Shown here piece by piece: positions 18,791 through 51,935 of a stretch of DNA of 64,000 nt. Made by a program: the position numbers and the translations under genes. The DNA is from Halanaeroarchaeum sp. HSR-CO (GTDB taxonomy: Archaea; Halobacteriota; Halobacteria; Halobacteriales; Halobacteriaceae), in contig NZ_CP087724.1 in NCBI RefSeq assembly GCF_024972755.1, positions 1,426,001-1,490,000 on the forward strand, written 5' to 3'. The notes below the pieces were generated by a model, which worked only from the letters and a program-made list of their open reading frames with translations, had not been told where the DNA came from and did not search any database. Positions within the stretch are counted from its first letter, which is position 1. Each line of letters starts with the position of its first letter.

Positions 18791-20268
18791 GGAAGTTCAA
18801 GGAGAAAGCCCCGTGCTTAAGCGCGGGGATGAATCCGACACAGTACTCGGCACCCGCCGCCAATAGTAGGGTCGGATATTTACCGTCCACGTTTACGTTC
18901 ACTCTCGCCCCGGAAGGATTGGAACAAAGTATATCTGCTACATAAAATATGTATGGCGAAACGGGTCGTCACGCGTACCTATCGCGCCCGCATCTACAAT
19001 TATTCGCAGGTACGAGACGACCTCGATTCGCTTGGATTCGCCGCCAGTAAGCTCTGGAACGTTGGCCGATGGACCGTTCAACGGGTCTGGGACGCTTGCG
19101 GGCAGATACCCGACGCGAACGCGCTCATGTCATATCTCAAGAATCACGAACGCTATGCCGACCTGCATTCACAGTCGAGTCAGCGAGTTCTCCAGGAACT
19201 CGGTGAGGCGTTCACGAGTTGGTACGGCAAGCGCGGAAACGGGGACGAGAACGCGAATCCGCCCGGCTACCGCAACCACAAAGCCGAGCATCCGCGCTAG
19301 ACGGTCACGTTCAAGGCCGCGGGATTCAAGCACGACACCGAGAACGAGCGCGTCCGTCTCTCGAAAGGCACGAATCTCAAAGAGACGCGGTCGGATTTCG
19401 TTCTCTGCGAGTACGACGTAATTGGCCCGTCCGAGCGCTCGACCGAAAACGTCCAACAGGTTCGAGCGGTGTACGAACACGGCATCTGGCGACTACATTT
19501 TGTCTGTCGCGTCGAGATAGATGAAGCTCACTCCCCCGGCGACGGTGTGGCAGGCATCGACCTGGGTATCTGCAACTTCGCTACCGTCTCATTTGGGAAC
19601 GAAGCCGTGTTGTATCCCGGTGGCGCGCTCAAAGAGGACGAATACTACTTCGGGAAAACACGCGCCGAAACCAACGACTCGGCCTCGCGAGAAGCCCGCC
19701 GTCTTGACACCAAACGCAGCGACCGCCGGACACACTTCCTGCACACGCTTTCGAAAGACATCGTGTCCGAATGTGTTAAACGAGGCGTCGGGACGATCGT
19801 CGTGGGTGATCTTGAAGGTATACGTGAGGGCGATGAGATAGGTGACACCCGGAACTGGGATATCACGGCAATCTCGACTTGCATGGCTGGGCGTTCGACC
19901 GGTTCACGTCGATGGTCGAATACAAGGCCGAAGCGAAGGGTATTGACGTAAAACGGGTGGATGAGCGCGGCACGTCGAAAACGTGTTCTGCGTGTGGGAA
20001 CGAAGACAGTCAGCAACGCGTCGAACGCGGATTATATGTCTGTGAGTGTGGGTTCGTCGAGAATGCGGATTGCAACGGTGCAGAGAACATCAGACAAAAG
20101 GTATTCCCGAATCCTCCAGAGGATAGGGATAACGGCTGGTTGGCACAGCCATCGGTCCGTCTGTTCGACAAATCCACGGGCAGAGTATGCCCACAAGAAC
20201 AGGTTGTTCCGTAGACCCAAATATCCCAAAGTGGGAATCCTCGCCCTTCAGGGCGGGGAGGATGTCAA
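18791..20268 (+). mobile_element. IS200/IS605-type element with broken tnpB only (IS1341-like)
   Basis: The left end follows a TTAC tetranucleotide (18787-18790) and carries a hairpin CCCCGTGC-TTAA-GCGCGGGG. The right end carries CCTCGCCC-TTCA-GGGCGGGG and finishes near GGATGTCAA (20268). The same left and right end sequences recur in inverse orientation at 30922-31534, which fixes the boundaries. There is no tnpA, so movement would need a transposase supplied in trans. The 3' noncoding part probably encodes the omega RNA, whose guide would start at 20269. Confidence 0.82.
18953..20214 (+). pseudogene. tnpB: TnpB RNA-guided nuclease, one amber stop plus one frameshift
   Basis: The frame starts MAKRVVTRTYRARIYNYSQ and would give about 420 residues of a TnpB (OrfB) protein. 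A TAG at 19298-19300 interrupts it; the same frame continues with TVTFKAAGFKHD, showing a single lesion. A second lesion near 19860 shifts the frame: after NW the protein resumes in another frame as YHGNLDLHGWAFDRF. RuvC residues are still recognisable (GIDLGI, VVGDLEGI, NADCNGAENI), as is the CSACG/CECG zinc finger. The gene is probably inactive, though the RNA part may still be transcribed. Confidence 0.88.
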
Positions 20269-39995: not shown

Positions 39996-41087
39996 CTATA
40001 GCTCTCGTTCCACCTCTTCTAAGGCGGTAATCGCCTCTCGGAGATGTGTACGCAATTCAGTCCCGGTATCATCCACCGACTCGGAACCGTCACGCGCCGC
40101 TATCAGTGACTGCAGGTCGACTGCATCCTGCGACCGCGTCCACGTCACGGATTCACCATCGCGAGACGCCTGATCGTCGACGTCATCGAGCCGGCGCTGT
40201 GCGTCGCTCTCTTCGGTCTTCGCTTCCCCAGAAGCGTTGTCGACTGGCCGGGTACCCCGCTTGGGCCGCCCACCGCGATTGAACGCGGCAAGGGGAAAGC
40301 CGTACGCAGCGGCGCGTTTTTGTTTATTGAAACTCGTGCGCCGGGCGATGCCGAGCACCTCGGTGACGTTCTGGCGGTCGACACCGCGGTCGAGTGCCTG
40401 GCGCACCTGTTCGTCTTCGACTCGTTGCACTAACAGCTGCGGGTCGTCAGGAATGTGCCCGCGAGCCGAGTTCTCGATCTGCTCTGCGAGCCCCCATTCC
40501 CCCGTATCGATGTCCTTATCGACGATCTGCCTGTCCCTGGACTCGACGAGATTATCCAGCCCCATCAGCGCCCAGAGGCGCTGACGGACGGATGAGACCG
40601 TGAGATCGGCGGAGAGATTGGAGGCGATATCTCCCGTTCGCGTTGGGCCCTGGCGTTCGAGATAGCGGAGTATCTCGATATCCTGCGGAAGGAGAACGCT
40701 CTGGTCGGCTTCGGTGATCTCGACGGGCGAGTCCTCGGGTGTCGACTGCTGGTGGAGCCAGTTATGGCAGGACCGGCACAGCAGCGTGAGGTTCTGGATA
40801 TCGTGCTCGTCCATCTCAGCGGGATCGCGGTCGATGTGGTGAACCTGCATCGTCGCCAGGCCACCTTGCTCCGGACCGCGTCGACCACATGCCTGACAGC
40901 GATGATCGTACTTATCGAGGACTCGCTGCCGGGTCTCTGCATCGACCGATTCGTTGTACCCGTGCGTGGGGTGCTGGTCCGATGGTGCATCGCTGGATGC
41001 GGTGTCTGTTCGATCCGTGTCGTCGTGCGTGCGTGTTTCTGTCGTCGTCATTTGTGTCGTGATTGGCTTGCTGGATTGGCGATGCAA
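39996..41087 (-). CDS. HNH endonuclease with C-terminal HTH region
   Basis: A protein of 363 residues (or 351 from an ATG at 41051, giving MTTTETRTHDD). A classical HNH domain with zinc: RCQACGRRGPEQGGLATMQVHHIDRDPAEMDEHDIQNLTLLCRSCHNWLH. The middle (LPQDIEILRYLERQGPTRTGDIASNLSADLTVSSVRQRLWALMGLDNLVESRDRQIV) is a winged helix, followed by GVDRQNVTEVLGIARRTSFNKQKRAAAYGFPL and a disordered acidic tail. It is encoded on the same strand as, and 136 bases downstream of, the RAMP-exonuclease operon, so it may be its last gene or an independent defence nuclease. Confidence 0.85.
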   Translation of the reverse strand: MHRQSSKPITTQMTTTETRTHDDTDRTDTASSDAPSDQHPTHGYNESVDAETRQRVLDKYDHRCQACGRRGPEQGGLATMQVHHIDRDPAEMDEHDIQNLTLLCRSCHNWLHQQSTPEDSPVEITEADQSVLLPQDIEILRYLERQGPTRTGDIASNLSADLTVSSVRQRLWALMGLDNLVESRDRQIVDKDIDTGEWGLAEQIENSARGHIPDDPQLLVQRVEDEQVRQALDRGVDRQNVTEVLGIARRTSFNKQKRAAAYGFPLAAFNRGGRPKRGTRPVDNASGEAKTEESDAQRRLDDVDDQASRDGESVTWTRSQDAVDLQSLIAARDGSESVDDTGTELRTHLREAITALEEVEREL

Positions 41088-41223: not shown

Positions 41224-41886
41224 TCAGGTCGACCTCGTTGGCGTGAGCGATTTGATCTGGAACTCGGATTTCGCACAGTACCGCTCGGCGACCTGGCCGA
41301 GTTCACGCGTTCGCAGGACGTCCGCCACGTTGTGGACGGCGAGGTCTGCGAATCGGCCGTCCTCGAAGGCGGTGACGGCTTCTGCGCTCTCATCGAAGGG
41401 GTCGTGGTCGCCGTGTGTGCCATCGCCCAGCACAGCGTAGGCCGTTGCAAGGTCGCCGTACTCCTCGCCATCGACGGTCGTATTGAACCGGTCGCTGACC
41501 AGCGGCAGCAAGTCGGCGTAGGGGACGTCCTCGAAGGGCCAGGCGATATCCAGCTGGGCGTACCGGGTCCGCAGAAACGGCAGGTCGAAGCCGCCGTTCC
41601 AGCGCTCGCCGTTGTACGCGACCAGCAGAATATCCTCATCGTGCAATCGCCGTTCGACGAAGTCGGCAACGGCCGCCAACACCGCCCGCTCCGATGGATG
41701 GATAGAGACGTTGACCAGCGTCTTCGTCGCGGCCTCCACAACCGCCTCGACGTCGCTGGGCGAGCGCCCGCCGGTCTGGACCATCACACGCACCCCCATC
41801 GACAGTCCAAACCCGATGACCGTCACCTCGTCGTTGGCGTCGAACCCGGTCGTCTCGATATCGAAGGCGACCTGCTCCAGGGCCAT
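41224..41886 (-). CDS. DEDD-type 3'-5' exonuclease in RAMP operon
   Basis: A protein of 220 residues with the RNase H-like exonuclease fold: Asp9 and Glu11 (AFDIETTGF), Asp101 (YNGERWNGGFDLPFLR), a YADLLPL segment (Asp125), and HNVAD (His185, Asp189), giving the complete D-E-D-D set with a DEDDh-like end. It is closest in pattern to PolB-related exonuclease domains. The start codon overlaps the stop of the upstream RAMP gene (ATGA), so it belongs to that operon. I infer that it degrades nucleic acid exposed by the RAMP complex or processes its guide. Confidence 0.82.
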   Translation of the reverse strand: MALEQVAFDIETTGFDANDEVTVIGFGLSMGVRVMVQTGGRSPSDVEAVVEAATKTLVNVSIHPSERAVLAAVADFVERRLHDEDILLVAYNGERWNGGFDLPFLRTRYAQLDIAWPFEDVPYADLLPLVSDRFNTTVDGEEYGDLATAYAVLGDGTHGDHDPFDESAEAVTAFEDGRFADLAVHNVADVLRTRELGQVAERYCAKSEFQIKSLTPTRST

Positions 41887-42821
41887 CAGGACTCACCTCC
41901 CGTCGCAGCGTCTGTACGTTCGGGCACCCGATCAACACTCGCCGGCCGAACCCGTAGCTCGCCGAACCCGAACCGCGAGTGCGTGCCGACACGCAAGACA
42001 CCATTTCTCGCGGTCGCTACCGGGTCGCGTCCGGTGTACGTGAGCACCTGGCCGTGGTCGACCGTCTCGAGCGTGTAGGTCTCGGCCCCATCGACGAGTC
42101 GTGTCTCCCGGCGGCGCAGGCCACCGTCGGGCACGCCCCACCACCAGGGCACCGACTGGTCATCCGCGTCCGGGTGCTCGGTCCGTAGGACATAGGGCGT
42201 GAGCACGTCGAGCTGGTAGGCATCCGCGTCGGCCAGCCGCGAGTAATCGAGGTCCTCCAGCGTTACCAGCTGTGTGTCCGCGACCGACAAACGCCCGAAA
42301 CCGTAATTGCGACTGCCGCCGACGCGCAGGCCTTCCAGGACGTCCGTCGACAGTGGCAGGGCCGCATCGGACCCATCGGTATGCAGATACGCGTGCAGGT
42401 ACCACTGCATCGACCGGCGGTGATTGTGACTCCCCTCGGGCCTGCCGAACCAGCACATATCGGCGAACGCGATGCGATCGCCGTGCTGCTGGAGGTCGAG
42501 GGCGTTATGTGCATCTCGCGGCCGGGAATCCAGGAGCCAGCGCTGGGCCGCGTCGCGGAACACGAACAGGTCTTCGTAGGCCTCGACCGGTGGCAGTGTC
42601 TGGCCCAGCTTGGCCGCATAGCCATCCTGGGAGGCCGCTGGTGGATAGTTGCCGTACTCGCCGGGGACGAACTGGCCGTGGCTCACCTGTAGATTTTTAC
42701 GCACTGCGGCATCGTCGACGCGGCGTGCGATGGCGGTGGCCAGTGCGTTCCCGGTGACGAAGTATGGATGGCCCATGTACGGCGTCTCCAGCTCGAAGAG
42801 GACCTGCTGGATCGCCGTCAT
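41886..42821 (-). CDS. RAMP protein with two glycine-rich loops (Cas5/Csf3-like)
   Basis: A protein of 311 residues from MTAIQQVLFELETPYMGHPY. Two glycine-rich loops typical of RAMP/ferredoxin-like Cas proteins are seen: LRVGGSRNYGFGRLSV (about residue 180) and VLRVGTHSRFGFGELRV (about residue 285). The first 90 residues contain a basic, aromatic stretch VRKNLQVSHGQFVPGEYGNYPP. Such folds bind crRNA handles (Cas5) or process crRNA (Cas6). I assign it as the likely Cas5/Csf3-like subunit because of position after the Cas7-like gene, but a Cas6-type processing role is equally possible. The ATG at 42821 was chosen; a longer frame overlaps the upstream gene. Confidence 0.65.
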   Translation of the reverse strand: MTAIQQVLFELETPYMGHPYFVTGNALATAIARRVDDAAVRKNLQVSHGQFVPGEYGNYPPAASQDGYAAKLGQTLPPVEAYEDLFVFRDAAQRWLLDSRPRDAHNALDLQQHGDRIAFADMCWFGRPEGSHNHRRSMQWYLHAYLHTDGSDAALPLSTDVLEGLRVGGSRNYGFGRLSVADTQLVTLEDLDYSRLADADAYQLDVLTPYVLRTEHPDADDQSVPWWWGVPDGGLRRRETRLVDGAETYTLETVDHGQVLTYTGRDPVATARNGVLRVGTHSRFGFGELRVRPASVDRVPERTDAATGGES

Positions 42822-42864: not shown

Positions 42865-43656
42865 TCATCGCCCACCTCCGTCTGTCGCGGCGATGTACTC
42901 CTCGATGAACTGCAGCGCCGTCGACCACGACCGAAGCCGTCGCAGCTGTGCGTCCAGGATACGCCACCGGCGGTCGGCGTCGACATCGATCGGTGACGTC
43001 GGCAGTCGCGCCCAGACGTCCGCGAACGAACGGGTCGGCGCGGCTCCCAGCGATGCAGCTGGACGGCCGTCCGGGTCCGCGGTCACGCGCAGTGATACCG
43101 GGCCCGCCTGCAGTACGGTTCGATGGGGCGTCACTGGCGTGTCAGCATCGTCGACGACCAGCGACAGTGCATCGAATGTCGCGCCGTCGCGGTAATTGGA
43201 CAGTAGTGCCGCCGTCAGCAGGACGTGGTACTTCAGCGACGTGTACGGGTAGTGGGCGGCCTCGTTGAACGCCGCCGCGGCCTTCGAGTCCAGCCACGCC
43301 CTGTGTGCGCGTTCGGGGTCATCAATCTGTGCCAGGTCCCGGGTCGGGGCCCTGAACGCGTCGACGCCCCGCTGGTCTGTTGCGATCTCGCCCGACAAAA
43401 GAGAGAGCCGAAACGGCAGCGCGTGCGCGGGCACGGTCTGCTCGGGGTCACCGCGCGGCCGACTCAGCAAGGCTGCATCGCCGTCCGCGCCGCGGGGCAC
43501 CGTCTCGTTCACGCGGACGCCGGCGGCCGTCTCGCTCGCCGCCGTGTGTGACCGGCCGCGCAGTTTGTGGATATCGTGGCGATACACCGCGAGCATGGGT
43601 GGGACCTCGGTCGGCTGGGCGTCGGTTGCTGTCGTCGCCGGTGACTCCGCGGTCAT
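42865..43656 (-). CDS. Unrecognised protein of RAMP operon
   Basis: A protein of 263 residues with no family recognised. Features: an N-terminal Ala/Thr-rich segment, HDIHKLRGRSHTAAS (basic, His-rich, perhaps RNA-binding), a helical middle (AWLDSKAAAAFNEAAHYPYTSLKYHVLLTAALLSNYRDGA), a beta-rich part (VTPHRTVLQAGPVSLRVTADPDGRPAASLG) and a C-terminal helical segment (RRWRILDAQLRRLRSWSTALQFIEEYI). Start and stop overlap neighbours on the 5' side by four bases. By position between the Cas7-like and Cas5-like genes it could be a small- or large-subunit analogue. Confidence 0.6.
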   Translation of the reverse strand: MTAESPATTATDAQPTEVPPMLAVYRHDIHKLRGRSHTAASETAAGVRVNETVPRGADGDAALLSRPRGDPEQTVPAHALPFRLSLLSGEIATDQRGVDAFRAPTRDLAQIDDPERAHRAWLDSKAAAAFNEAAHYPYTSLKYHVLLTAALLSNYRDGATFDALSLVVDDADTPVTPHRTVLQAGPVSLRVTADPDGRPAASLGAAPTRSFADVWARLPTSPIDVDADRRWRILDAQLRRLRSWSTALQFIEEYIAATDGGGR

Positions 43657-44615
43657 GCCTCCTCACCGTCCAGCGAGGGCATCGGCAGGTCGCCATCACG
43701 CATCGCGGTGCGGGCCTGGAGCGCCCTGACGAACTCGTCGCGGAGCTCCGTCCGCCATCGCTCGTCTTTGTCTTCCATTGCCGAGGTCGTCCCCTGGGCC
43801 CGGTTGAACACGCGACGCACCTCGGCCTCGGTGTACAGTGGGTTCACGACCCAGACGTCCGCGACGCCGGCCCCGAAGTTGCGGGCGCCGCCGAGCTGGA
43901 ATTCGAATTCATCACTGTGGGCATCGAGGAAGGCGACGGCCTCGATGAGCAGGCCAACGAACTCCGGTTTGAGCTCTCGCAGCGTCAGCTTCCACGTGCC
44001 CTCGACGTTCCCGAGCACGTCCCGGTCGGCCTGGCGGAGTGGCTGGCCGCCGTCGTCTTCGTTGCGCGAGCGCACCTGATTCGAGATCTGCCTGAAGTGG
44101 GCTTCCGCTTCGCCATCGAGGACGTCGACGTGACGGCGGATCGGCGAGAAGGATACCGGCCGGCGCAGGAGTTTGCCTGGTTGGGAGCCGAAGCCCCCGA
44201 ACAGGTCGTAGATGACACAGCCATCGTCGTGGTCATCGAGACAGGTCCCTTTCTCGTGATAGCCCGCATCGAGGTCGCGTTCGTACACGTTCGCGCGCAT
44301 GTAGTCCGCGTTGGGCTCGCCCGGGTGGCACGCCGTCGCGCCGGCAGTCTGGACAACCTGTTCGCAGCCGTGTCGGAGCCAGCCTGACAGCGTGAACGGC
44401 GAGATCTGGCCCTCGATCTGGTTCATCGGGTCATCCGCCTCGTAGCGGTCCGCGGAGGCATGATGGCGGTCCGTGACGAGCCCATCCCCGGGGGCCAGCA
44501 GGTCGATTTCGAGGCCGACGTATAGGTCGGGCAGGAGCATTGCATCGACATCGACTGGCGGGTCGACGTCGATGTCGAGATGTGAATCCTGCCACTCGGG
44601 GGTGGTTGTGGTCAT
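43653..44615 (-). CDS. Cas7/Csf2-like RAMP backbone protein
   Basis: A protein of 320 residues. RAMP features in order: a first strand LYVGLEIDLLAPGDGLVTDR; IEGQISPFTLSGWLRHGCEQVV, corresponding to the Cas7/Csm3/Cmr4 motif iPgsslkG-LR; CVIYDLFGGFGSQPGKLLRRPVSFSP, like the lFG..s..G.l.f.d segment of Csm3-type proteins; and the C-terminal glycine-rich loop FEFQLGGARNFGAGVADVWVVN. These indicate a Cas7-family subunit that would polymerise along a guide RNA; the size and neighbour order suggest type IV Csf2. His/Asp pairs (TDRHHASAD) near the N-terminus could give Csm3-like RNA cleavage (speculative). Confidence 0.72.
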   Translation of the reverse strand: MTTTTPEWQDSHLDIDVDPPVDVDAMLLPDLYVGLEIDLLAPGDGLVTDRHHASADRYEADDPMNQIEGQISPFTLSGWLRHGCEQVVQTAGATACHPGEPNADYMRANVYERDLDAGYHEKGTCLDDHDDGCVIYDLFGGFGSQPGKLLRRPVSFSPIRRHVDVLDGEAEAHFRQISNQVRSRNEDDGGQPLRQADRDVLGNVEGTWKLTLRELKPEFVGLLIEAVAFLDAHSDEFEFQLGGARNFGAGVADVWVVNPLYTEAEVRRVFNRAQGTTSAMEDKDERWRTELRDEFVRALQARTAMRDGDLPMPSLDGEEA

Positions 44616-45109
44616 TATCGGTCACCCCCGAGTCCCGGGTGGGCGGGCTGGTTCGCTCGGGGGCGGGGTTCGCCCAGTGAAGTCCTCGGTTGGGCGTCCC
44701 GGGCGGTCACTCCCTGGTCAGGGTCAGTGTCGGACAGCGTCTTCTGTGCCGACTTCGTCGACGGCTCGCTCACTGCCAGTATCGCTGGGTCGGCGATCAC
44801 GAGCGACGGCGATTCTGCCTCGGAGGGTTGCTGGAGTCGGCCCTCCACCAGCAGTTCGCGCACGCCCAGGGTGAATTCCGTCGGGTGGGCGTGTGTTTTA
44901 TTTCCGCAGAGTATGTTGCCCACCTGGAACTTCGATTCGCCAGCCGGGCGGAATACGTACGCAACGACCGTATCGCCTGGTTCGAAAGAAGAGCCGCACA
45001 CTTGACACGTCGCGGCCCCTACCCCGGGCGAATATTGTAATAATTCTGATATGTCTTCAATTAACCGGGCACCGATAGCCTCTTGCTTCGGGGATTCTGA
45101 CTTATCCAT
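44615..45109 (-). CDS. Zinc-finger protein opening RAMP operon (Csf1-like)
   Basis: A protein of 164 residues. The first 45 residues are helical, followed by a zinc finger: C-x2-C at ATCQVCGSSFEPGD and a second pair NILCGNKTHAHPTEF (Cys plus His ligands). The C-terminal third is disordered and Pro/Arg-rich. Type IV CRISPR loci start with a small zinc-finger protein, Csf1, at the position of the large subunit; size, zinc finger and gene order fit this, but direct sequence similarity cannot be tested here. The stop overlaps the next start by one base (TAATG). Confidence 0.55.
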   Translation of the reverse strand: MDKSESPKQEAIGARLIEDISELLQYSPGVGAATCQVCGSSFEPGDTVVAYVFRPAGESKFQVGNILCGNKTHAHPTEFTLGVRELLVEGRLQQPSEAESPSLVIADPAILAVSEPSTKSAQKTLSDTDPDQGVTARDAQPRTSLGEPRPRANQPAHPGLGGDR

Positions 45110-45120
45110 GGGTTTTCACC

Positions 45121-45203
45121 TGGTGTGAAACCCCAGTCCGAGTGTCCTAGCACTCGGGCGTTCTCTCAGTAGAACTGCCCCAGGGGACTGAGCTTTCACA
45201 CCA
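45121..45203 (-). promoter_or_regulatory. 83-base branched inverted-repeat structure before RAMP operon
   Basis: An outer perfect 10-base stem (TGGTGTGAAA 45121-45130 with TTTCACACCA 45194-45203) encloses two hairpins: CCGAGTG/CACTCGG (45138-45144, 45151-45157, 6-base loop) and CTCAGT/ACTGAG (45165-45170, 45187-45192). It lies only 11 bases upstream of the first ATG of the operon. As RNA it would be a three-way junction in the 5' leader; as DNA it could be a compound operator. It also shows a second palindrome TTTCAC-CTGG-TGTGAAA at its proximal edge. Confidence 0.6.
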
Positions 45204-45281
45204 TCTCCTACATCGTGTAATGGTATAAGCTTTGCCCATCACCGACATAGGAAATGGGGAATGACCCATCACCTACATAGG
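45201..45281 (+). promoter_or_regulatory. Repeated operator-like motifs before divergent HTH gene
   Basis: CCCATCACCGACATAGG (45235-45251) and CCCATCACCTACATAGG (45265-45281) are near-identical 17-base direct repeats exactly 30 bases apart; a weaker copy CCATCTCCTACATCG starts at 45201. Each is roughly palindromic around CTACATAG. The spacing puts sites on the same DNA face. They are placed between the RAMP operon and the HTH gene at 45295 and are probable binding sites for that regulator. Confidence 0.55.
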
Positions 45282-45294
45282 TAGTGTCCACGAA

Positions 45295-45537
45295 ATGGAT
45301 ATCGTGCCGGGAAAAGATCGAGAGGAAGAGTCTGGGAGATATACAACGAGCTACCCAGATTCTGATTTCATCGATGCCATTCAATCACTTGGCGGGATGG
45401 CAGGAACGTCGGAGATAGCCGAAACTGTCGGCTGCACCCGTCGGACGGCGTACACGCGACTCCAGTCACTCGAATCCGAAGGTCAGGTCACCAGCAGAAA
45501 AGTCGGGAACTCTCTACTCTGGAGCGTCTCCGACTGA
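45295..45537 (+). CDS. Small HTH regulator divergent from RAMP operon
   Basis: A protein of 80 residues. Residues 23-78 form a winged helix: DSDFIDAIQSLGGMAGTSEIAETVGCTRRTAYTRLQSLESEGQVTSRKVGNSLLWSVS. It begins 14 bases after repeated operator-like motifs, so autoregulation and control of the divergent RAMP operon are plausible. Confidence 0.82.
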   Translation: MDIVPGKDREEESGRYTTSYPDSDFIDAIQSLGGMAGTSEIAETVGCTRRTAYTRLQSLESEGQVTSRKVGNSLLWSVSD

Positions 45538-47342: not shown

Positions 47343-48424
47343 TTAGAACCCAGTTGCATAATTGAGCGCCCAAGGGTTAGACAGTACCTCGTCTTTGTCA
47401 TCGGTCCCACCCTCGGTGAGCAACCCAATGTGGTAGAGATGGTACTTGAACTGGAAGTGAATGCCAGATTTGTACACGGTCGGATCGGTAAGCACTGATT
47501 CGTCGATGTCGCCGTCGGCGGTGAGTACGTCTTCGCGCCTGGATTGGGTGACGAACACCTCCACGGAGAGTGGTTGGTTGATACGGCAGGCTTCTCTGAC
47601 GACGGCGTCGATGGTAGCGGGATTGATGCCGCGTTGGTGGAGGCGTTCGAGAGCTTCGACGATGAGTTGCGTTGGCTCGTACTGGATGGCGACTGAGCGG
47701 GCGAGTTGTGCCCATCTGGGAGCAAGGTCGGTGAACGGTTTAGAGCGGCCTTTCCACGAAGCGAATTCGTCAAGTGCGGCAGCGATGCTTCCGTGTTGGT
47801 GGCGGGCGAAGCGGACGACTTCTGCGCCGAGGTGTGTGAGTGTCTCCCCATTAGGCTGGTTATCGACAAGTCTTAGCAGAATTGCCCCCGGCGGCCACCT
47901 GATACGCTGTTGATTACGTGCTCGGAGTAGATACCCGGTGTGTCGCCATCGGCGGCGAGAGCGAGCGCGTAGCCGAGGTAGTTCTTCGGGTGATTCACCG
48001 GGAAGCTGCCTTCGGTGAGTCGATGCGTTGTGGCTTGGAACCGGATTGCATCGATGGTGGTGGAGAAATCACCGCCTCCAGTAACACGGGCAGGTTCGAT
48101 GAGCGTTGCGTCGTGGGGGCTTTCGACGCCGATGACGCCGACATTCAGATTCCGGGCCAGCGCACGTGCCTGGTCCGAAATGCTCTGGATGGGGGCGGCG
48201 ACGTACCCGATGTTGACTTCGGACAGGTGGCCGTGTGCTTGATCGATACCGGTTCTGACGTCAGCCGCGCTCGGGTCGTTGTTGTGGCCTTTCGCTTCGA
48301 TGACGGCGACAGGCGTTGTAGTGGCGTCGGCGTTCAAGACTTCGAGGGCAGGCATACCGACGCCGAGGAGATCAGGTTCACCGTCGGCAAGACGAATCGT
48401 GTTGTACGGTGCGAGGCGTTGATG
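47343..48424 (-). pseudogene. Broken duplicate of the PD-(D/E)XK-like gene at 50.5-51.8 kb
   Basis: The N-terminal 55 or so residues are missing; recognisable sequence begins HQRLAPYNTIRLADGEPDLLGVGM at about 48424 and runs through VIEAKGHNNDPSAADVRTGI. At about 47886, in a run of G, the frame is lost (GGRRGQFC stop) whereas the intact copy reads GGRRGAILLG; skipping one base restores the rest to 47343 (VEVFVTQSRREDVLTADGDI). Identity with the intact copy is high over the whole length, so duplication was fairly recent. The copy is inactive. Confidence 0.85.
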
Positions 48425-50526: not shown

Positions 50527-51774
50527 CTAGATTGTGATGACTTCGAGATCAACTGGGTGTTCCAACGCCCACTCGTTGGTGAGTACGGCAGTCTTGTCAT
50601 CAGTCCCTCCCTCGGTGAGAAGGCCGATGTGACGAAGGTGGTACTTGAACTGAAAGTGGATCCCCGATTTGTACACGGTTGGGTCGGTAAGCACTGATTC
50701 GTCGATGTCACCGTCAGCAGTGAGCACGTCTTCGCGCCTAGATTGGGTGATGAATACTTCCACGGCCAGTGGTTGGTTGATGCGGCAGGCTTCGTGGACG
50801 ACGTCGTCGATGGTAGCGGAGTTGATGCCGCGTTGGTGGAGGCGTTCGAGAGCTTCGACGATGAGTTGCGTTGGCTCGTACTGGATAGCAACCGAACGGG
50901 CGAGTTGCGCCCATCGTGGAGCGAGTTCGGTGAACCGTGTGGGGCGGCCTTTCCAGGAAGCGAATTCGTCGAGTGCAGCATCGACGGTCCCGTGTTGAGT
51001 GCGGGCAAAGCGGACGACTTCTGCACCGAGGTGCGTGAGTGTCTCTCCGTCCGGTCGATTGTCGACGAGACCGAGGAGGATTGCGCCGCGGCGGCCACCT
51101 GAGACGCTGTTGATCACGTGTTCGGCGTAGATGTCACGTGTATCGCCATCGGCGGCGAGAGCGAGTGCGTAGCCGAGGTAGTTCTTCGGGTGATTGACTG
51201 GGAAGCTGCCTTCTGTGAGTTGGTGCGTCGTGGCTTGGAATCGGATTGCATCGATAGTGATGGAGAAGTCACCGACGCCGGTGACGCGAGCGGGTTCGAC
51301 CAGCGTTGCGTCGTAGGGGCTTTCGACGCCGATGACACCGATGTTGAGGTCGCGGGCCAGTGCCCGTGCCTGGTCGGTGATGCTCTGGATTGGGGCGGCG
51401 ACGTACCCGATGTTGACTTCGGACAGGTGGCCGTGGGCCTGGTTGATGCCGGTTTTGACGTCGGCGGCGCTCGGATCGCTGTTGTGGCCTTTCGCTTCGA
51501 TTACCGTGACTGGAGTCGTTGCAGCGTCGGCGTTCAGGACCTCGAGAGCCGGCATTCCGACGCCGAGGAGGTCAGGCTCTCCGTTCGTGAGTCGAATGGT
51601 GTTGAACGGTGCTAGGCGCTGATGTACTTTGTCGGGGATCTGCCACCCGCCCCATGAGGGTTTTGTGAACTGAGTTTCCGTGACTGCGTAGTGGTCGGAG
51701 CTTGCGTTGAGGTCTGGATAGAGCGTATCTTTAGCGGCAGCGAGAACGGTGGGTTCTGTGAGCGTAGCTGCCAT
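50527..51774 (-). CDS. PD-(D/E)XK-like nuclease family protein, intact copy
   Basis: A protein of 415 residues from MAATLTEPTVLAAAK. The region GEPDLLGVGMPALEVLNADAATTPVTVIEAKGHNSDPSAADVKTG shows P-D-L...E-A-K on adjacent strands, the PD-(D/E)XK signature. Then come IGYVAAPIQSITDQARALARDLNIGVIGVESPY, a helical middle and a C-terminal region with GTVDAALDEF, RINQPLAVEVFITQSRRED and a final beta part. No HTH is obvious in the first half. It may be a restriction-type or repair nuclease. It stands alone; a broken second copy lies 2 kb away on the same strand. Confidence 0.7.
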   Translation of the reverse strand: MAATLTEPTVLAAAKDTLYPDLNASSDHYAVTETQFTKPSWGGWQIPDKVHQRLAPFNTIRLTNGEPDLLGVGMPALEVLNADAATTPVTVIEAKGHNSDPSAADVKTGINQAHGHLSEVNIGYVAAPIQSITDQARALARDLNIGVIGVESPYDATLVEPARVTGVGDFSITIDAIRFQATTHQLTEGSFPVNHPKNYLGYALALAADGDTRDIYAEHVINSVSGGRRGAILLGLVDNRPDGETLTHLGAEVVRFARTQHGTVDAALDEFASWKGRPTRFTELAPRWAQLARSVAIQYEPTQLIVEALERLHQRGINSATIDDVVHEACRINQPLAVEVFITQSRREDVLTADGDIDESVLTDPTVYKSGIHFQFKYHLRHIGLLTEGGTDDKTAVLTNEWALEHPVDLEVITI

Positions 51775-51935
51775 TACTGAAAACGCTCTCACTCGATAAC
51801 CATTAAATTGAATTTCGGGAGTGGCTTGCTATGTCGGTCCTCATTGGTTTCCCCTCCCTACTGGAGCGAACCTGCCGCCAATGACAAGAATAGCATTCCA
51901 TAGAATGATATACTTGCGTTACGTACGTTTTTCCG

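Follow-up and report, generated by a model that had tools for sequence, protein, structure and literature searches.

A three-way junction RNA ahead of a haloarchaeal RAMP operon belongs to a leader family of Halobacteriales and may act as a translational switch

Introduction

What is the role of a branched, RNA-like inverted repeat that lies directly upstream of an operon for CRISPR-derived RAMP proteins? The question arises from a locus in Halanaeroarchaeum sp. HSR-CO, on a 64,000-nucleotide stretch of DNA that was analysed as a whole and is called the window here. A sequence-only reading of this DNA had considered the repeat as a leader RNA of the operon, as a guide or scaffold RNA substituting for the missing CRISPR array, or as a binding site for Cas-like proteins. 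Haloarchaeal RAMP (HRAMP) systems are described in PMC8730458, in a section citing Makarova and co-workers, and are termed array-less in a passage of PMC12669027. A leader RNA would be an uncommon find in this group of organisms: a genome-wide study of transcription start sites in Haloferax volcanii reported 72% of transcripts as leaderless, and its authors considered structured leaders to be atypical for haloarchaea (PMC4983044). By 2021, the fluoride riboswitch of Thermococcus kodakarensis was the sole natural riboswitch of archaea to have been determined experimentally (PMC8241225).

Results

The Leader Element and the Operon Behind It

The element at 45121-45203 forms, on the minus strand, the body of a leader RNA of about 95 nt that folds into a three-way junction, in which an outer helix P1 encloses the hairpins P2 and P3. 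P1 (45121..45203), as judged from sequence, fold and the covariation of its inner part, comprises the perfect 10-bp stem noticed earlier (45203-45194/45130-45121), a G-G mismatch and 8 further pairs (45192-45185/45139-45132). P2 (45156..45180, minus strand, GGGC-A-GUUCU..AGAAC-GCCC), based on fold and alignment, is built of 4+5 bp with a single bulged A (45180-45177/45159-45156 and 45175-45171/45164-45160), and its 3' side carries a purine-rich GAA-like motif that is kept across the family. P3 (45140..45155, minus strand, GAGUG-CUAGGA-CACUC), based on fold and covariation, consists of 5 bp (45155-45151/45144-45140), or of 7 if the adjoining CC/GG is included. Both enclosed hairpins of the sequence-only reading are therefore present, but their stem lengths, given there as 7 and 6, were slightly off; the 11 nt between the junction and the start codon at 45109 (45110-45120) had been counted correctly. 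The minimum free energy (MFE) of the minus strand is -50.6 kcal/mol, compared to -31.2 +/- 3.6 for shuffled sequences (z -5.32, 0/200), and the plus strand of the element reaches z -4.67. A covariance model, R1, whose training set includes this copy, places the leader at 45107..45203 (minus strand, 98 positions, the last being the AUG of gene 1) with 76.1 bits and an E value of 9e-17. The host genome encodes this single full copy and one weak second member (locus L189, G000:C1:723140-723224, 24.2 bits), in which P1, P2 and P3 are present and an AAGAAGC-AUG tail matches GCUUCUU.

The operon downstream of the leader, encoded on the minus strand throughout, fits the HRAMP type. Its first gene, g1 (44615..45109), codes for a CxxC protein of 164 aa, for which the predicted fold is of low confidence and yields no significant structural match. 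It is followed by the gene for a Cas7-like HRAMP protein of 320 aa (43653..44615), whose AlphaFold model (pLDDT 77.4) resembles Cas7-like subunits of type VII, Csm and type IV systems in Foldseek comparisons (E values down to 2.8e-6, probability 1.00 to chains of the type VII complex). A conserved uncharacterised HRAMP gene, g3 (42865..43656, 263 aa), is recognised by its conserved position. Position likewise suggests that the second RAMP-like protein (41886..42818) is probably the product of the Cas5-like HRAMP gene; its weak similarity to Csx10 (E 0.052) is far below the cut-off. The genes for an RNase H-like/DEDD exonuclease (41224..41886, Pfam RNase_H_2, 1.7e-6) and an HNH nuclease (39996..41087, Pfam HNH, 1.8e-9) complete the set. 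Elsewhere in the window, two near-identical reading frames on the minus strand, one much shorter than the other (47873-48355 and 50527-51792), suggest a partial duplication.

HRAMP loci form two types. In type A, Cas7 is mostly 65-86% identical to that of the window and is accompanied by g1, the exonuclease and usually the HNH nuclease, the two nuclease genes being kept in most of these loci. In type B, Cas7 is about 50-60% identical to the window protein, and g1, the exonuclease and the HNH nuclease are mostly absent. Among 80 named homologue loci, 79 are from haloarchaea or archaeal MAGs and one is on a contig labelled as an Elusimicrobia MAG; the Cas7 search did not detect HRAMP Cas7 in viral contigs.

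Conservation and Covariation of the Junction

Conservation of the stems in related loci had been named beforehand as a test of the RNA-like repeat, and the stems are indeed kept, with covariation. A total of 105 HRAMP loci were oriented, and 47 of type A were aligned for the construction of R1. The three-way junction is found directly before the start of g1 in practically every type A locus: 50 of the 51 loci searched possess it, the Cas7 start lying 350-623 nt downstream of its AUG, which places the RNA immediately ahead of g1, and in the single locus lacking it g1 is likewise undetected. All 39 type A loci from named genomes (Halorubrum, Haloarcula, Natronomonas, Halosimplex, Halorussus, and others), some of the same species as in the set of 51, carry the leader as well, while it was found at 11 of 49 type B loci. 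The terminal AUG of the RNA starts a reading frame of 100-230 aa in all 47 loci of the alignment.

In the training alignment (n=47), standard pairs fill 93.6% of the pair cells, and both sides have changed in 11 of the 18 pairs; a shift of the partners by 1-3 columns reduces pairing to 20-48%. At one pair of P1, 26 of the 47 sequences have U-G and the other 21 have C-G. An independent set of 97 matches in 83 further loci, nearly all of them non-HRAMP and outside the training set, shows 95.4% paired cells versus 76.3% in shuffled alignments, changes on both sides for 16 of 18 pairs and a covariation score of 0.541 versus 0.178 (0/500), and pairing again collapses when partners are slid; this alignment was fitted to R1, which somewhat favours the model's own pairs. 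At the level of sequence comparison, the secondary structure of the leader is supported by compensatory changes. At loci L116, L120, and L127, the leader keeps P1 and P3 but has a much reduced P2 or none. Searches with blastn using the window copy gave no match in plasmid and phage collections because the leader sequence diverges too fast, and a covariance model or a closer query is what works.

Predicted Promoter, Direct Repeats and a Divergent Candidate Regulator Gene

When 157 copies are aligned on the start of P1, an A/T peak (90-95% A/T) with an A-rich element before it appears at -32/-33, and transcription is therefore expected to start just before P1. In the window, this peak corresponds to a BRE/TATA-like promoter at 45222..45235 on the minus strand (region GCAAAGCTTATACC, with TTATA at 45228-45224). 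Three direct repeats can be read from the sequence at 45201..45281 of the same strand, CCTATGTAGGTGATGGG at 45281-45265, CCTATGTCGGTGATGGG at 45251-45235, and CGATGTAGGAGATGG at 45215-45201; these CCTATGTAGGTGATGG-like repeats might possibly act as an operator. On the opposite strand, a divergent gene (45295..45537, plus strand) codes for a small winged-HTH protein of 80 aa, whose Pfam HTH matches stay below the cut-offs. Homologous divergent genes accompany 45 of 61 copies of the HRAMP set and 56 of 96 other copies, and operator-like palindromes or repeats are seen around the promoter. The winged-HTH product is a possible regulator of the leader promoter.

These features raise the question of whether the junction might itself be a DNA-level operator or cruciform for the winged-HTH protein, with no RNA involved, for which the frequent divergent gene and the palindromes or repeats around the promoter could speak. 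We regard this as extremely improbable. G-U pairs are frequent in one strand, which favours an RNA over a DNA cruciform, and in addition to the covariation the site lies downstream of the TATA box. With such strand-specific compensatory changes, G-U pairs included, the DNA reading is disfavoured. The earlier judgement that the structure is too elaborate for an operator was right; the operator-like repeats form a set of their own upstream of the junction.

Distribution Beyond HRAMP

Among 392 genomes of Halobacteriales, R1 finds the leader RNA in 220 at E<=1e-3 and in 242 at E<=0.1; since up to about 40 genomes of the latter count may be due to chance, the former is used. The Cas7 profile detects HRAMP in only 97 of the same 392 genomes, and 143 of the 220 RNA-positive genomes (E<=1e-3) have no match to it, as is also true for 27 of the 84 RNA-positive genomes listed with E values below about 1e-9. 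In a sample of 294 genomes taken across the phylum, the 22 RNA-positive ones all belong to the Halobacteriales. Many copies may occur per genome, with about 35 matches in G380 and 25 in G087. R1 also matches pHSAL1 of H. salinarum 91-R6 (L359:2700-2800) with 81.7 bits. A degenerate relative, recognised by eye and below the model threshold, precedes VNG_RS11530 on pNRC200 of H. salinarum NRC-1 (L358:2920-3004); its MFE structure contains an alternative hairpin at the AUG, its z of -0.46 is ordinary and it was excluded from the evidence.

This distribution bears on the proposal that the RNA is an HRAMP guide or scaffold that takes the place of a CRISPR array. The near-perfect association with type A HRAMP operons, the array-less nature of the system and the single full copy in the window genome would agree with such a role. 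However, the RNA is present in the 143 genomes without detectable HRAMP Cas7 and ahead of unrelated genes, which speaks against an HRAMP guide RNA. Furthermore, few type B loci carry it, the copies end at a start codon and no guide-like variable single strand is seen. Genome distribution and start-codon position thus largely refute the guide role once suggested for this repeat, and we consider it very improbable.

Start-Codon Position and Downstream Genes

Of the 157 copies, those of the HRAMP set end in ATG in 100% and the others in 98% of cases. At four plasmid copies, three from Halococcus dombrowskii and one from Halomarina, the CDS start in RefSeq is the ATG of the leader; in Haloarcula halobia, the annotated start of g1 lies further downstream. 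The 157 copies and the four RefSeq starts locate the leader RNA between promoter and start codon. For the window, there is strong support for the suggestion that the repeat is the operon's leader RNA: it is the minus strand that folds, a TATA element precedes the stem by about 32 bp and the structure extends to the AUG of gene 1, as it does in practically every type A operon.

First genes after non-HRAMP copies fall into 34 clusters, the largest of which (32 members) contains SWIM zinc-finger proteins, followed by a family of about 100 aa without assigned function, a zinc-ribbon-like microprotein of 48 aa and a g1-HNH fusion (L208). Frequently, the first 12 or so codons of downstream genes are alike (MSTNExSGQES) and the remainder is unrelated. 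Several copies are plasmid-borne or adjoin transposase or ParA genes. The fusion (L208:1501-2900, in G258) joins a g1-like domain to an HNH nuclease in 439 aa behind the leader RNA, in a genome without Cas7 match. In G380 (L259-L263) and G338 (L264-L265), dispersed units of about 1.1 kb consist of the leader RNA, a 48-aa zinc-ribbon-like reading frame and a longer one, and within G380 these units are about 80-85% identical. At L252-L255, L242, and L275, on contigs or plasmids, short genes cluster with a leader copy each and often share the N-terminal peptide MSTNExSGQES; these clusters might be accessory-gene islands.

Such an arrangement might also reflect translational autoregulation, with HRAMP, or elsewhere a downstream zinc-binding protein, binding its own leader and repressing its own synthesis. 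Cas7-like proteins bind RNA, and the modelled Cas7-like fold of the 320-aa protein would be in agreement with this idea, as would the presence of the leader at practically every type A locus. Elsewhere, many of the genes behind the leader code for small proteins that bind zinc, SWIM-finger proteins among them, and these might bind nucleic acid. However, the same fold precedes unrelated proteins, so that one self-binding protein cannot account for all copies, and binding by an HRAMP protein would leave the copies of HRAMP-free genomes unaccounted for. Autoregulation therefore seems unlikely to us.

Competing Helices P1 and P4

Just before the AUG, the leader carries a second copy of the inner P1 5' strand sequence. 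In the window, the 3' strand of P1 (45133-45125) can consequently pair with the tail (45119-45110), and the alternative helix read from the sequence, P4 (45110..45133, minus strand), would have 9 bp and one bulged A and end directly before the AUG. Across the family, 107 of 162 distinct copies have a 6-nt segment, ending 0-1 nt before the AUG, that can pair along its whole length with the P1 3' strand, compared to a mean of 42 and a maximum of 56 when tails are swapped between copies (200 trials), and to 7 of 162 for a control 6-mer located 8 nt further upstream; about one third of the copies have no complete 6-nt match. The pairing occurs in 26 sequence versions, e.g., GGGUUC/GAACCC, GGCUUC/GAAGCC, GGUUGU/ACAACC, GGUCUU/AAGACC, and GCUUCG/CGAAGC, and the 66 tails without AACCC form contiguous duplexes of 5.67 bp on average, versus 4.04 +/- 0.14 after swapping. 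This complementarity argues for the conservation of two mutually exclusive helices, as in a translational switch. A mutually exclusive expression-platform helix thus appears to be present in terms of complementarity, which is distinct from behaviour.

In most copies, including that of the window, P1 is favoured over P4 in the MFE structure, so that a strong trigger would be needed to exchange them. When the P1 5' strand is blocked in folding, 77% of copies adopt P4, at an average penalty of 8.5 kcal/mol, and the region around the AUG becomes less accessible across the family (0.32, down from 0.57); for the window copy, accessibility is 0.60 in both states.

A different use of P4 is conceivable, namely as a processing signal that is cut at its 3' base before the AUG, giving a leaderless mRNA and releasing a stable RNA of about 95 nt. 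P4 ends at the AUG or within 1-2 nt of it in most copies, and in Haloferax volcanii, where 72% of transcripts are leaderless (PMC4983044), translation mainly takes the leaderless route. Neither a nuclease nor a cleavage site is known for such an event, and the usual preference of the MFE structure for P1 stands against it as well; we judge processing to be quite unlikely.

Discussion

We think it likely that the leader is the 5' UTR of the HRAMP mRNA, that it belongs to an RNA family found throughout the Halobacteriales and that it works as a translational switch in which P1 and P4 compete under the influence of some trigger. What was computed is the RNA fold, its location at the start codon, the position of the promoter and the P1/P4 complementarity across the family; that the leader switches, in which direction and on what trigger, and what the winged-HTH protein does are our inferences. 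Transcription is predicted to begin a few nucleotides ahead of P1, and the nascent leader would fold into the three-way junction, leaving the last 20 or so nucleotides before the AUG mostly unpaired. Alternatively, the last 6 or so nucleotides of this tail would pair with the P1 3' strand, giving a P4 hairpin that ends at the AUG. A trigger at the junction, which might be a small molecule, an ion, temperature or salt, or an RNA-binding protein, would choose between the two: with P1 formed the start codon would be open and translation on, and with P4 formed the start region would be closed and translation off. In this way, HRAMP and many unrelated, often plasmid-borne genes might be controlled post-transcriptionally, and the divergent winged-HTH protein, as a repressor, would probably add a transcriptional layer.

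The genes behind the leader have no obvious pathway in common, which is unusual for a metabolite riboswitch. A more far-reaching proposal is that an archaeal sensor RNA, either riboswitch-like or the target of a global regulator, controls the translation of a regulon of defence and mobile-element genes, HRAMP included, in response to one shared signal; we offer this tentatively and would not be surprised if it proved incorrect.

At the leader, no Rfam 15 family scores above its gathering threshold, the only matches being unrelated and far below it; elsewhere in the window, a sense-overlapping transcript RNA, sot0042 (RF02656), is matched at 20099-20259 on the plus strand with 117.6 bits. A literature search that had most subscription journals outside its reach retrieved no published description of the family. 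On these grounds, and given that structured leaders were reported to be atypical and that a single natural archaeal riboswitch had been experimentally determined, we rate the leader as a new RNA family whose kind of function is known. With its occurrence in roughly half of the sampled Halobacteriales and up to 35 matches per genome, the family would overturn the conclusion of PMC4983044 that such leaders are atypical in haloarchaea and would provide archaea with an extensive regulatory module based on RNA. HRAMP would, in addition, be revealed as an operon under post-transcriptional control, and the family suggests a regulon that groups genes without assigned function with HRAMP.

In comparison with known systems, the locus agrees with HRAMP as described in PMC8730458 in that a Cas7-like and a second RAMP-like protein are encoded together with an HNH nuclease and an exonuclease behind the leader; the passages on HRAMP that were covered name no RNA component. 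CRISPR crRNA/tracrRNA, scaRNA, and OMEGA guide RNAs are likewise small structured RNAs beside RAMP and nuclease genes, but the leader RNA shows neither a repeat-spacer array nor a variable guide and precedes unrelated genes. The fluoride riboswitch of T. kodakarensis is also an archaeal 5'-leader RNA element; it is from another organism, and no fluoride riboswitch match from Rfam is found at the window leader. From translational riboswitches and ribosomal-protein leaders the family differs in its hosts, the Halobacteriales, in which structured leaders were thought to be atypical, in downstream genes without a common pathway and in the segment to be sequestered, an AACC-type repeat at the AUG, the haloarchaeal Shine-Dalgarno consensus GGAGGUGA being absent from the family consensus. 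With these same systems it shares a leader that extends to the start codon, two helices that compete for one strand, compensatory mutations and many copies per genome ahead of different genes.
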